Below, in pieces: positions 37,094 through 43,513 of a DNA stretch of 64,000 nt (position 1 is the first letter of the stretch; each line of letters starts with the position of its first letter). Position numbers and translations under genes: made by a program. This DNA is from Atribacter laminatus (GTDB lineage Bacteria > Atribacterota > Atribacteria > Atribacterales > Atribacteraceae), in the NCBI RefSeq assembly GCF_015775515.1, contig NZ_CP065383.1, forward strand, positions 1,674,001-1,738,000, in the 5' to 3' direction. The notes beneath the pieces were generated by a model that saw nothing but the letters and a program-made list of their open reading frames with translations, was not told the DNA's origin and did no database searches.

Positions 37094-37110
37094 AAATCAT
37101 TGAGAAAATA

Positions 37111-37246
37111 CTTCTTCAGGGTAGGGTAAGGGAGAAATTCCCAATTCCTAACCGGCGGTGATGGTTAATCCTAAGCCCGCGAACCCTTTTTGGGTTGATC
37201 CGGTGAAAATCCGGAGCCGACGGTATAGTCCGGATGGGAGAAGAAG
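37111..37246 (+). promoter_or_regulatory. FMN riboswitch (RFN element)
   Basis: The conserved core is clear: AGGGTAAGGGAGAAATTCCC, ACCGGCGGTGATGG, AGCCCGCGA, GATCCGGTGAAAATCCGG, AGCCGACGGTATAGTCCGG and ATGGGAGAAG. The closing stem P1 is CTTCTTC (37111-37117) with GAAGAAG (37240-37246). It lies between its promoter and the riboflavin transporter ribU, so FMN should switch off transporter expression. Confidence 0.97.
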
Positions 37247-37260
37247 CCTATAGTGAGCCC

Positions 37261-37334: not shown

Positions 37335-37901
37335 ATGAAGTGTCGTAATTTGGTTTATACTGGAGCATTTTCTGCTCTTTCCATTGTTTTGAGCTATTTA
37401 ATCCACTTTCCCCTCATTCCTTCGGCACCCTTTTTACTGTATGACCCTGGTGATGTACCCATATTGATTATGGGCCTTAAATTCAGTCCTGGGATTGGAG
37501 TAATTATGACTGCAATTGTTTCAGTTCTATTTGCGGTTTTAACCGGCCAAGGAGGCCCCTGGGGGGTTCTCATGCATTTTATTGCGACTGGTGTATATGT
37601 ATTGGTTGCTAGTTTGATTTACCGAAGGCATAGAAATCTTTCTTCAGCGGTAAAAGGTTTGATTATTGCTCCTTTGGTGATGACCGGGGTTATGGTGATA
37701 GCCAATCTTTTCGTTACGCCTCTGTACTTAGGAGTAACCAGAGAAATGGTTGTTGGCATGCTGCTTCCTGCTATTATACCCTTTAACCTTCTCAAGGGTG
37801 CTATTAACGGAATCATAACTTTCTTACTCTATAAAAAAGTCAGTAACTTTCTTGAAGTCGGTAATCAGTGTGTTTCAAAACCCAATGCTGTCGGGCAATA
37901 A
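37335..37901 (+). CDS. ribU: Riboflavin ECF transporter S component
   Basis: RibU is the substrate-binding membrane subunit of an energy-coupling-factor vitamin transporter. The 188-residue protein has about five or six membrane helices and family motifs: GAFSALSIVLSYLIHFPLIP, LYDPGDVPILIMGLKFSPG, and FNLLKGAINGIITFLLYKKV. The FMN riboswitch directly upstream confirms riboflavin. The shared ATPase/T components are not in the window. AGGAGG precedes ATG 37335. Confidence 0.95.
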   Translation: MKCRNLVYTGAFSALSIVLSYLIHFPLIPSAPFLLYDPGDVPILIMGLKFSPGIGVIMTAIVSVLFAVLTGQGGPWGVLMHFIATGVYVLVASLIYRRHRNLSSAVKGLIIAPLVMTGVMVIANLFVTPLYLGVTREMVVGMLLPAIIPFNLLKGAINGIITFLLYKKVSNFLEVGNQCVSKPNAVGQ

Positions 37902-38522: not shown

Positions 38523-38550
38523 TTTACAAGATTGAAAATTGCCGTATAAT
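38523..38550 (+). promoter_or_regulatory. Promoter of the T-box/trpXYZ unit
   Basis: TTTACA (38523-38528) and TATAAT (38545-38550) are 16 bases apart. Transcription would start near 38557, upstream of the T-box. Confidence 0.7.
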
Positions 38551-38581
38551 TTTGTGATATATCATTAATATATCGTAAAAA

Positions 38582-38822
38582 TCCGAAGAAGGGAACAAGT
38601 AGTTTCTTTTTACAAACTAAAGAGAGCCGGGAGAAGGGCTGGAATCCTGGTGTTTGTGATGAGATGAATGGAACCTGGAGGAGTGAAGCTGGTCGAAGAA
38701 TGAGATTAAAGCTTCATCGCGTGCTGCGTTAAAGGTTTAAAGCTGGAGCCTCTTGCTCAATGAGGGTGGTACCGCGGGTCATATATCCCTCCCGTCCCTG
38801 TGTCGGGAGGGATTTTTTTTTA
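38582..38822 (+). promoter_or_regulatory. T-box riboswitch leader, specifier UGG (Trp)
   Basis: All T-box parts are visible: AGTA (38598-38601) facing GAA-TGG (38666-38671) in the specifier loop; the AGAGAG at 38620-38626 with apical stem CCGGGA/TCCTGG; the antiterminator T-box GGGTGGTACCGCG (38764-38776); and a terminator stem ATCCCTCCCG/CGGGAGGGAT (38785-38813) with a T-run. The helix ACAAAC/GTTTGT places TGG (38669-38671) as the specifier, so uncharged tRNA-Trp should turn on the transporter. The tRNA 3'-end pairing bulge is UGGU, which would match a discriminator A rather than the G usual in tRNA-Trp. Confidence 0.93.
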
Positions 38823-38836
38823 AAAGGAGGTACGAT

Positions 38837-39844
38837 ATGAGAAAGATTCTTTTTTTATCCTTGTTAGTTTTGTTGTCAATTGGTTTGGTTCTCCCAGCAA
38901 CAGCTGCTGAACCAGTAAAAATTGGGATCATGCAGATTGTTGACCATCCGGCTTTAAATGCAACCCGAGATGGTGTAAGAGATGCTCTTCAAGAAGTCTA
39001 TGGATACGTTCCCGATCAAGATATCATCTATGATATGCAATCGGCTCAAGGCGATGTCGCAACTGCAAACACCATAGCGCGCAAATTTGTTTCCGATCGG
39101 GTTGATGTTATTGTTTCAATTGCCACCCCCACTTCACAGGCTGCAGCCAATGCATCGAAAGAAATCCCAATTGTTTTTTCTGCTGTAACTGATCCAGTCA
39201 GTGCTGGTTTGGTTAAGGACCTACAACAGCCAGGCGGAAATGTCACCGGTGTATCGGATATGACACCGGTTGATAGGCAAGTCGAAATGTTAAAATATTT
39301 ATTTCCTGATGCCAAAAATTTAGGAACCGTTTATAATGCTGGTGAGGTTAATTCGGTAGTAACCAATGATTTAGCAAAAATTGCCTGTGAAAAAAATGAA
39401 ATGTCACTCATCGAGGCAACAGTTTCAACATCGGCTGATGTGGCTATTGCCACCCAATCATTAGTTGGCAAAGTCGATGCGATTTATGTTTCTACCGACA
39501 ATACGGTGGTTAGTGCCTTAGAAACGGTTATTAAAGTTTGTGAGGATAAAAAAATACCGTTAATCTTGGCTGACCCAACTACTTTAGAAAAGGGAGCTAC
39601 TTTGGCCTTAGGTTTTGATTATTATCTGCACGGTCGTCAAACCGGTGATATGGTAGCTCGAATTCTTAAGGGAGAAAAACCATCGGATATACCAGTAGAG
39701 TTTGCCAATAAACTGGTTTTAATGGTAAATAGTAAAAATTTGGAAATACTTGGTATTCAGGTTGATGATTTTAAGGCTCTTTTAGAAAAATATGTTGAAG
39801 ACATGAGATCTCAAAATGTAGAAGTCACTTTGGAAGTCAAATAA
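38837..39844 (+). CDS. trpX: ABC transporter substrate-binding protein (TrpX family)
   Basis: The 335-residue protein has a signal peptide (MRKILFLSLLVLLSIGLVLP... to TAA) and a periplasmic-binding fold of the COG2984 type: VKIGIMQIVDHPALNATRDG, IVSIATPTSQAAANASKEIP, IVFSAVTDPVSAGLV, and VDAIYVSTDNTVV. ATG 38837 has AAGGAGG upstream; the longer frame from 38753 runs through the T-box terminator and is rejected. With the Trp T-box and two following genes it forms a predicted tryptophan importer. Confidence 0.9.
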   Translation: MRKILFLSLLVLLSIGLVLPATAAEPVKIGIMQIVDHPALNATRDGVRDALQEVYGYVPDQDIIYDMQSAQGDVATANTIARKFVSDRVDVIVSIATPTSQAAANASKEIPIVFSAVTDPVSAGLVKDLQQPGGNVTGVSDMTPVDRQVEMLKYLFPDAKNLGTVYNAGEVNSVVTNDLAKIACEKNEMSLIEATVSTSADVAIATQSLVGKVDAIYVSTDNTVVSALETVIKVCEDKKIPLILADPTTLEKGATLALGFDYYLHGRQTGDMVARILKGEKPSDIPVEFANKLVLMVNSKNLEILGIQVDDFKALLEKYVEDMRSQNVEVTLEVK

Positions 39845-39946: not shown

Positions 39947-40846
39947 TTGTACGACTATTTTGTTTTTAGTGTGCAGGAAGGATTGTTATACGGTATTCTT
40001 GCCTTAGGTGTGTATATAACTTTTCGTTGCTTGAACTTTCCTGATCTAACGGTAGATGGGAGTTTTCCATTAGGAGCGGCAGTATTTGCTTCATTGGTTT
40101 ATCGAGGATTTGGCCCGATAGAAAGCATGATCGCCGCTTTTATTGCCGGAGCCTTAGCCGGTTTGTTCACTGGGGTGTTACATACTTTTTCGAAAATTCC
40201 AGCTCTTTTATCGGGAATTCTTACCATGACCTGTTTATATTCTATTAATTTAAGGATTATGGGACGTCCTAATATATCACTTTCTGAAAACCTAGGACAT
40301 CGAACGGTTTTTACTATGCTGAGAGATTCTTTCAATGGTATACCAGAAAGCTATCTTCGGCTCTTTTTTTTAATTGGACTCATTGTTCTTATAAAAATAT
40401 TATTAGATCTTTTTTTGCAAACCGAAATTGGTTTAGCTATCCGGGCTACTGGCGATAATGAAACTCTGGTTGAGGCTCAAGGGGTCAATCCCGACCGTAT
40501 CAAGTTGGTAGGAATTTCTCTATCCAATGCTCTAGTGGCATTTGCTGGTGCTATGTTTGCCCAGTATCAAGGTTTTGTCGATATCAATATGGGAATCGGT
40601 ATGGTGGTTTTGGGTCTGGCTTCGGTAATCGTTGGAGAAGTTCTTCTAAGAGGAAGAATTATTTTAGTAATTACTCTTCAGGTTATTATTGGAGCGGTTG
40701 TTTATCGATTAGCTACCGCAATTGCTTTGAACTATGGGTACAATATTGGTTTTAAACCCTATGATTTGAAGCTTTTTACCGGTCTTTTAGTTATTATTAT
40801 TCTCTCTTTTCCGGTAATAAAAGAGAAGTTTAGGAGAGTGAAATAG
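39947..40846 (+). CDS. trpY: ABC transporter permease (TrpY family)
   Basis: The 299-residue protein has eight to nine membrane helices and the features of the COG4120 family: EGLLYGILALGVYITFRCLN, FPDLTVDGSFPLGAAV, GIGMVVLGLASVIVGEVLL. This is the membrane partner of TrpX-type binding proteins. The start is TTG 39947 with GGGTGA upstream, about 100 bases after trpX. The stop overlaps trpZ by one base. Confidence 0.9.
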   Translation: MYDYFVFSVQEGLLYGILALGVYITFRCLNFPDLTVDGSFPLGAAVFASLVYRGFGPIESMIAAFIAGALAGLFTGVLHTFSKIPALLSGILTMTCLYSINLRIMGRPNISLSENLGHRTVFTMLRDSFNGIPESYLRLFFLIGLIVLIKILLDLFLQTEIGLAIRATGDNETLVEAQGVNPDRIKLVGISLSNALVAFAGAMFAQYQGFVDINMGIGMVVLGLASVIVGEVLLRGRIILVITLQVIIGAVVYRLATAIALNYGYNIGFKPYDLKLFTGLLVIIILSFPVIKEKFRRVK

Positions 40847-41658
40847 TGTTACAACTGGATCATATAGATAAAGTGTTTTTTAGAAATACTCCTGATGAAA
40901 GATGGGCTTTGAGAAACCTTTCCTGTACTGTACAACCTGATGAGTTTGTCACTATTGTAGGGAGTAATGGTGCTGGAAAAACCACCTTATTAAACATTAT
41001 CAGCGGTAACCACTTTCCCGACCGGGGAAAGGTGGTTGTTGAAAGCCAAGATGTAACCTCCCTTCCGGCTTTTCGTCGGGCTCGTTTTATCGGTAGAGTC
41101 TTCCAAAATACCACTCAGGGGACAGCGGCATCATTGACCATTGAAGAGAATTTTGCTATTGCCTACGCCAAAGGAAGAACCAGAGGGCTCCGTTTAGCAA
41201 TTTCAGAACATTTGAGAAAAAAAATTCGAGAGAAATTAGCTGAGGTTGGTTTAGGATTGGAAAACCGCCTTCGAGATCGAGTGGGACTTTTATCAGGTGG
41301 TCAACGGCAAGCTCTGGCACTGCTTATGGCGACTATTGGGAATCCAAAAATTTTACTTTTAGATGAGCATACCGCCAACCTTGATCCAAAAACTGCTGGG
41401 AAAATCATGAATCTAACCAACCTTCTTATTCGAGATGATCATCTGACGGCGTTTATGATTACCCATGACTTAGGAGATGCTCTGAACTTTGGGACTCGAA
41501 CCCTTCTTATGGATGATGGCGAAATTGTTTTAGACATCTCAGGAGAAGAAAGAAAGAAGATGACCATCGAAGAACTTTTAGAGCGATTTAGTGAACGCCG
41601 CCGTAAAAAATTCGCTAACGATCGCGTGTTACTTTCAACCGAAACCAAGGAAAGTTAA
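40846..41658 (+). CDS. trpZ: ABC transporter ATPase (TrpZ family)
   Basis: The 270-residue ATPase has Walker A VGSNGAGKTTLLN, Q-loop GRVFQNTTQGTAASL, signature LLSGGQRQALALLMA, Walker B KILLLDEHTANLDPKTA and the switch His MITHDLGDAL. 'DEHTANLDP' instead of 'DEPTxxLDP' is typical of the COG1101 group that pairs with COG2984/COG4120. GTG 40846 is the start. Downstream is the repeat R1 copy B. Confidence 0.93.
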   Translation: MLQLDHIDKVFFRNTPDERWALRNLSCTVQPDEFVTIVGSNGAGKTTLLNIISGNHFPDRGKVVVESQDVTSLPAFRRARFIGRVFQNTTQGTAASLTIEENFAIAYAKGRTRGLRLAISEHLRKKIREKLAEVGLGLENRLRDRVGLLSGGQRQALALLMATIGNPKILLLDEHTANLDPKTAGKIMNLTNLLIRDDHLTAFMITHDLGDALNFGTRTLLMDDGEIVLDISGEERKKMTIEELLERFSERRRKKFANDRVLLSTETKES

Positions 41659-42012: not shown

Positions 42013-42190
42013 CAAGAGGTGTTTTATAAAAAAGATCAGTATTGAATAAAATTGGTAGATGTAAAAATTGCAGTTCGAGAATTTGTTCTCAACACAAGAT
42101 ATTGAAAAGAGAGTTTATAAAAAATATAAAACGAAATTAAGGATATTGGTTTTAGAAAAAGCCAATAAAAAAACACCGGAGGTGATTACC

Positions 42191-43513
42191 ATGGAAGAGG
42201 CAAACCGAATATACCTGAGCGATAAGGAGATGCCGACCATCTGGTATAATATCATTCCAGATTTACCGCGGCCTCTTGATCCACCGTTGCATCCAGGTAC
42301 CAAAGAACCGGTTACTCTTCAAGATTTGGAACCAATTTTTCCACCGAGCCTCATACAACAAGAAGTCAGCAACCAGCGTTTTATTGATATCCCTGGTGAA
42401 GTGCTGGATATCTATCGCCTCTGGCGTCCCTCACCCTTGTATCGTGCTCGACGATTGGAAAAAGCTTTACAAACACCGGCTCGTATCTATTATAAATATG
42501 AAGGTGATAGCCCGGTTGGGAGTCACAAGCCAAATACTGCAGTTGCGCAGGCGTATTATAACAAAAAAGATGGGACCAAACGTTTGACAACTGAAACTGG
42601 TGCTGGACAGTGGGGTTCAGCTCTTTCTATGGCTTGCCATTATTTTAATATGGAATGCACGGTTTATATGGTAAAGGTGAGCTACCAACAGAAACCTTAC
42701 CGACGGGTTTTAATGCAAACCTGGGGTGCCAATGTTTTTGCCAGCCCCAGTGACAATACCAAAGCTGGGAAAAACATTTTAGAGAAATCACCTGATTCGT
42801 TGGGAAGTTTGGGGATTGCCATTAGTGAAGCAATAGAAGATGCGGTAACGACCCCCCATTCCAAATATAGTCTGGGAAGTGTACTCAATCACGTGCTTTT
42901 ACATCAAACTATAATTGGAGAAGAGGCGAAACTTCAACTGGAGAAGGTTGGAGAAAAATATCCAGATATTATTATTGGATGCGTAGGAGGAGGGAGTAAT
43001 TTTGGCGGACTCCTTTTCCCTTTTATGCGGGATAAAATCAGTGGAGAGAAAAATTTCCGAGCAATAGCTGTCGAACCAAAATCGTGCTCATCCTTTCTAA
43101 AAGGAAAATATGAATACGACTTGGGTGATGTAGCTGGAATGACTCCCTATTTAAAAATGTACACCCTTGGTCATGATTTCATTCCACCGGGAATTCATGC
43201 CGGTGGATTACGATATCATGGGATGGCCCCCTTGTTGAGCTTATTATATAATTCCGGTTTAATCGAAGCTCAATCGTATAAGCAAACTGATATTTTTGAT
43301 GCTTCTATGGTATTCATGCAATCGGAAGCAATTTTACCAGCTCCGGAAAGTGCACATGCAATAAAATCAGCCATAGAAGAAGCGAAGAAATGCAAAGAAA
43401 CTGGAGAAGAGAAGGTTATCCTCTTTAATCTCAGTGGAAACGGGTATCTTGATTTAGGAGCCTATGATGTTTATATTAATGAGGGTCTCCCCGAGGTAAA
43501 TCATGATTCGTAA
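42191..43513 (+). CDS. trpB2: Tryptophan synthase beta chain, TrpB2 type
   Basis: The 440-residue PLP enzyme has the TrpB2 start ([20 protein letters not shown]), the PLP-lysine segment [13 protein letters not shown], the [11 protein letters not shown] loop, and the PLP-phosphate loop [11 protein letters not shown]. TrpB2 makes tryptophan from indole and serine and does not need TrpA; no trpA is present. ATG 42191 is chosen because GGAGGTGAT precedes it and homology begins there. A 41-residue upstream extension from TTG 42068 has no ribosome site and no homology. Indole salvage beside a Trp importer is a likely theme. Confidence 0.94.

Follow-up and report, generated by a model that had tools for sequence, protein, structure and literature searches.

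The leader upstream of a trpX-like importer operon in Atribacter laminatus, read from its sequence, is almost certainly a transcriptional Trp T-box riboswitch in which UGGU is a tolerated wobble and does not point to a tRNA other than tRNA-Trp. The leader lies in a window of 64,000 nucleotides, the whole stretch of DNA analysed. Its specifier is UGG and its bulge reads UGGU, and the only tRNA-Trp gene found in this genome carries G73. The pairing between the UGGN bulge and the discriminator of the cognate tRNA is therefore a U-G wobble instead of a Watson-Crick pair. Below, we set out the anatomy of the leader, the tRNAs that could read it, and the behaviour of the fourth bulge letter in related genomes.

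Anatomy of the leader and its operon

The earlier note had called for a covariance-model check of the leader, and this check confirmed the feature as real. Rfam model RF00230 matched 38577-38802 (+) over its full length (model positions 1-219 of 219) with 106.9 bits, above its gathering cut-off of 93 bits. The E value of 1.2e-22 leads us to dismiss a chance match. The features of the leader and operon are as follows.

38523-38550, + strand: sigma-70-like promoter TTTACA-16-TATAAT, 11 of 12 matches, from a consensus scan
38577-38822, + strand: Trp T-box leader, Stem I to terminator (RF00230 for 38577-38802; terminator and T-run from sequence)
38598-38601, + strand: AGTA, specifier loop (5' side), invariant in the alignment described below
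38621-38625, + strand: AGAGA bulge of Stem I, from sequence; AGAGA is what PMC8002221 gives for the conserved AG bulge
38666-38668, + strand: GAA, specifier loop (3' side), unchanged across all 20 trpX leaders aligned
38669-38671, + strand: specifier UGG (Trp), likewise invariant and unpaired in the consensus fold
38683-38717, + strand: Stem II (consensus fold columns 124-169)
38746-38758, + strand: Stem III, from sequence and consensus fold
38763-38799, + strand: antiterminator, helices A1 (38763-38766/38796-38799) and A2 (38774-38778/38791-38795)
38767-38773, + strand: antiterminator bulge UGGUACC, between A1 and A2
38767-38770, + strand: UGGU opposite the tRNA 3' end GCCA, with U38770 facing G73 (wobble), from sequence and the tRNA-Trp 3' end
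38785-38821, + strand: intrinsic terminator, a 10-bp stem (38785-38794/38804-38813) followed by a T-run
38825-38830, + strand: Shine-Dalgarno-like AGGAGG, from sequence
38837, + strand: start codon of the trpX-like gene, from sequence
38837-39844, + strand: trpX-like substrate-binding protein (PF04392, 311.8 bits)
39947-40846, + strand: ABC permease, trpY-like (PF02653)
40846-41658, + strand: ABC ATPase, trpZ-like (PF00005)
42068-43513, + strand: TrpB-like enzyme of the TrpB2 type (TIGR01415, 655.6 bits, above cut-off), starting 409 bp after the trpZ-like gene

The promoter scan returned 11 sites in the region against a shuffle mean of 9.5, and the one further support for the promoter-like site is its place just upstream of the leader. 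Elsewhere in the window, an ordinary FMN riboswitch (37108-37249; RF00050, 108.7 bits) precedes the S component of an ECF riboflavin-type transporter (37335-37901).

The claim that the downstream genes form a TrpXYZ-type importer operon held up, as a TrpX-like protein, a permease and an ATPase are all present. They probably encode an importer for tryptophan. The only NCBIfam match of the TrpX-like protein is NF041285 TrpX, at 288.2 bits against a cut-off of 390. Its relatives of known structure are, in score order, PDB 3lkv (uncharacterized), 6hni (named as a sugar-family protein) and 3lft, whose ligand is reported to be tryptophan (PMC9382623). We only infer tryptophan as the substrate, because the TrpX score falls below the cut-off and 3lkv and 6hni both outscore the tryptophan-bound 3lft.

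Conservation of the leader was followed in an alignment of the window leader and 19 further trpX leaders drawn from its order, among them members of its family and genus; the alignment takes 20 of 21 leaders, L064 being omitted as a near-copy of L063. In the consensus fold GAAUGGR is unpaired and faces AGTA, and GAAUGG is invariant. The UGG adjoins a single purine and then the closing helix. Immediately beneath the specifier loop, columns 33/114 pair in standard fashion in 15 of the 20 sequences but hold A-A in the window, which makes the window's specifier loop one base longer. The loop of Stem II reads AGTA in 11 of 15 trpX leaders outside the window's genus; none of the five leaders within the genus (L056-L060) keeps this sequence, which may change the S-turn of Stem II there.

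The antiterminator is nearly uniform in these leaders, with 99.4% of cells paired and most pairs invariant. Covariation is weak, with both-sided change at one pair, a level reached by 447 of 500 shuffles, because the pairs hardly vary. At the foot of helix A2 the pair is G-U in 18 of 20 leaders, a position described as a sensor of the aminoacyl group (PMC7583486). The terminator is 85% paired and shows both-sided changes at 5 of its 10 pairs. Its two outermost pairs form in just 4 and 9 of the 20 sequences, and further pair types, one of five measures, numbered 8 against 9.0 in shuffles, not above chance. Folded alone, the terminator region gave a z-score of -0.98, no energy signal beyond composition. 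For this predicted terminator the evidence is thus conserved pairing rather than folding energy. Antiterminator and terminator share CCCG at 38791-38794, as in the competition between a UGGN-bulge antiterminator and a terminator.

The probable cognate tRNA and its competitors

The puzzle raised by the earlier note was a UGGU bulge where UGGC was expected; it suggested that tRNA-Trp carries A73, that the pairing is weakened, or that another tRNA is read. The discriminator check it proposed was carried out on the window's genome. An RF00005 search gave 51 matches, with 150 of 255 first-look candidates scored. Among the tRNAs named by ARAGORN in the loci of all 51 matches there is one tRNA-Trp(CCA), which ends CCTGCCA and thus has G at position 73; no second tRNA with a CCA anticodon was named in this set, and given that scope an aberrant second tRNA-Trp keeps a slight chance. 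The three matches that ARAGORN left unnamed are fragments lacking a normal acceptor stem. Hence A73 does not describe the one tRNA-Trp(CCA) gene found, and U38770 faces G73 as a wobble. What survives of the three suggestions is weakened pairing, and of a mild kind, namely a U-G wobble. In 38 relatives' tRNA-Trp loci tried, all 36 discriminators that could be read are G73 (L129 reads to GCC only).

Several tRNA remnants accompanied this search. L049 191-260 (C1:1109490) is the 3' part of a tRNA-His with its CCA kept, 8.4 kb from the intact gene L021 (C1:1101050), and L047 249-316 (C1:2321248) is the 3' part of a tRNA-Gly(CCC), also with CCA kept, 10.8 kb from the intact L010 (C1:2310439). Both have the look of attachment sites duplicated by integrated elements. 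L050 204-268 (C1:912303) is a degenerate tRNA-like fragment that resembles tRNA-His and has extra anticodon-loop bases.

The UGG in its AGTA/GAA loop matches the host tRNA-Trp(CCA), and its invariance and unpaired state bear out the earlier reading of both the Trp specificity and the UGGU bulge. The genome holds other tRNAs that merit consideration. Every GAAUGG contains an AUG one base upstream of UGG (38668-38670 in the window), and the three CAU-anticodon tRNAs of this genome all have A73, which would pair perfectly with UGGU; the leader might then be a Met or a dual Trp/Met T-box. We give this a very slim chance. AAUGG arises automatically wherever the loop's GAA meets UGG, and GAAUGG plus a purine is equally common with both bulges among the trp T-boxes of relatives sampled below: 47 of 49 carry it, 25 of 26 with UGGC and 22 of 23 with UGGU (the two that do not are L112, which reads AAAUGGG, and L216). 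Where a T-box of this genome is of Met type, before a homocysteine biosynthesis gene (PF01837), it reads GAA-C-AUG-G, the AUG following the whole GAA, and in relatives' leaders L094, L095 and L151 the order is GAA-AUG-G, again free of overlap. The operons with GAAUGG in the window's genome are trpE, trpB and trpX.

A different AUG, at 38664-38666, had been named by the earlier note as the next candidate specifier. This triplet is present in the window and in L058, yet the consensus fold places its first two bases in a helix, and of four leaders compared from the same genus, L057, L059 and L060 lack it; the chance that it is the specifier is close to nil. A rule that counts back from the loop's 3' end, strictly applied, would read GGA (Gly) in the window, owing to the extra base of the A-A pair. 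The genome's three tRNA-Gly all carry T73, however, for which the bulge would have to be UGGA.

Assignment to tRNA-Trp is in keeping with the other T-boxes of the genome. Seven were found, six above the gathering score, and their specifiers are given as read here.

trpE operon: GAA-UGG, bulge UGGC, Trp
trpB operon: GAA-UGG, bulge UGGU, Trp
trpX operon: GAA-UGG, bulge UGGU, Trp
aminotransferase and SerA-like dehydrogenase: GAA-UCC, bulge UGGC, Ser, G73
ilvD operon: GAA-A-CUC, bulge UGGU, Leu, A73
homocysteine biosynthesis (PF01837): GAA-C-AUG, bulge UGGU, Met, A73
argC: GAA-CGA, bulge UGGC, Arg, G73, below the gathering score

With the specifiers as read, pairing at position 73 is Watson-Crick in all but the trpX and trpB leaders. 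A single tRNA-Trp appears to serve both kinds of Trp T-box in this genome, because trpE has UGGC, trpB and trpX have UGGU, and the sole tRNA-Trp found is G73. The TrpE protein scores below the curated cut-off of its family model, which is nevertheless its best match. The names SerA, ilvB, trpA and trpY/trpZ are used by analogy, rather than from a family scan. After the trpB operon under its Trp T-box lies another ABC importer (L089 2605-5981; Peripla_BP_4, ATPase and permease).

The fourth bulge letter among relatives

The fourth letter was counted in fetched loci with a fixed T-box pattern, among the matches listed in a 50-genome search of the phylum. Genes were assigned by tblastn with nine proteins of the window's genome, and the 16 of 122 T-boxes left unassigned were excluded. 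U occurs in 23 of 49 T-boxes of trp genes (C in the other 26), in one of 13 before serine-type aminotransferase genes, and in 44 of 44 before Met and Leu/Ile-type genes, where the discriminators of the Ser (G73) and of the Met and Leu tRNAs (A73) are those of the window's own genome. Fisher's test on the frequency of U, rough as the sequences are related, gave p = 0.011 when Trp was compared with Ser and p = 8e-10 when it was compared with the A73 group. From these counts, the fourth letter seems to be tightly matched to the discriminator in T-boxes for the other amino acids and loosely in those for Trp. In six genomes (G000, G002, G006, G007, G009 and G019), trp T-boxes of both kinds, UGGU and UGGC, occur beside a G73 tRNA-Trp. 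The one serine-type exception, L173 in G007, pairs a UCC specifier with UGGU and is possibly a second such wobble.

Could the letter be set for each operon? Each lineage might adjust how easily an operon switches on through the fourth letter, via its single G73 tRNA-Trp; in the window's genus the wobble would then be retained to raise the demand of the importer and trpB for uncharged tRNA above that of trpE with its UGGC. The sampled leaders of this genus do follow such a split (C in all 3 for trpE; U in all 5 for trpX and in all 5 for trpB). However, genus g10 shows the reverse (trpE U in 3 of 3, trpX C in 3 of 3), which also disposes of any general rule that importers carry the wobble. Leaders of one genus are moreover close relatives, and inheritance explains the pattern equally well. 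In line with this, U is clustered on a TrpX tree, needing 4 changes by parsimony against a shuffled mean of 6.5. Operon-specific tuning is on balance an unlikely account.

This 20-row tree is long-branched, with many poorly supported forks, and leaves out L060 because its longest open stretch is just 109 aa. At least two of the four changes are forced by well-supported branches, and a single inheritance of U on this tree is thus unsupported. A T-box is present in 21 of 22 closer TrpX loci (L056-L076 and L085), and L071 begins 58 bases from a contig end. A pattern scan of eight more distant TrpX loci of family f7 (L077-L084) found no T-box motif.

The tolerated wobble in the T-box family

A tolerated wobble has precedent. 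According to TBDB, U faces G73 in 46% of the Trp T-boxes it collects, which suggests a G:U wobble; TBDB calls this wobble 'previously noted', with Grundy, Rollins and Henkin 1994 as its reference, and accepts wobble pairs between UGGN and the discriminator (PMC7778990). The window leader shares with that class the UGG specifier, the UGGU bulge and G73, and as far as TBDB describes the class, no difference was found beyond host and sequence. Given this 46%, the wobble of the trpX leader is a known exception in a known RNA family. The earlier note read UGGU correctly, and its expectation of UGGC was too strict.

Two characterized systems resemble the window leader in part. The Streptococcus suis trpXYZ T-box, as reported, likewise has a UGG specifier, acts transcriptionally and precedes a TrpXYZ importer, and its reporter responds to tryptophan; it differs in having UGGC and a predicted length of 461 bp, against UGGU and about 246 here (PMC9382623). 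The Paenibacillus polymyxa serA T-box shares UGGU, there with a serine tRNA, and is described as working in cells, whereas its specifier is AGC (Ser) and not UGG (PMC8002221). A search of a collection of open papers for T-boxes in Atribacter returned nothing; within that collection, as distinct from other papers and databases, the leader may be undiscussed.

The standard T-box mechanism would apply here, because the antiterminator and terminator are conserved, share 38791-38794, and have G-U at the foot of A2. When tryptophan is short, the anticodon of uncharged tRNA-Trp(CCA) would pair with UGG at 38669-38671, and its free 3' end GCCA with UGGU at 38767-38770, through three Watson-Crick pairs and the U-G73 wobble. 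The docked end would hold the antiterminator (38763-38799) and block the terminator (38785-38813), so that the importer genes are transcribed. The end of a charged tRNA-Trp could not dock, and the terminator would form. That the leader regulates the importer genes, and in this direction, is what we presume.

The letter that seemed not to match the tRNA makes a wobble of which this T-box family already has recorded cases, and the tryptophan assignment stands. UGGU and UGGC leaders under one G73 tRNA-Trp form a clean natural pair for measuring the cost of that wobble.
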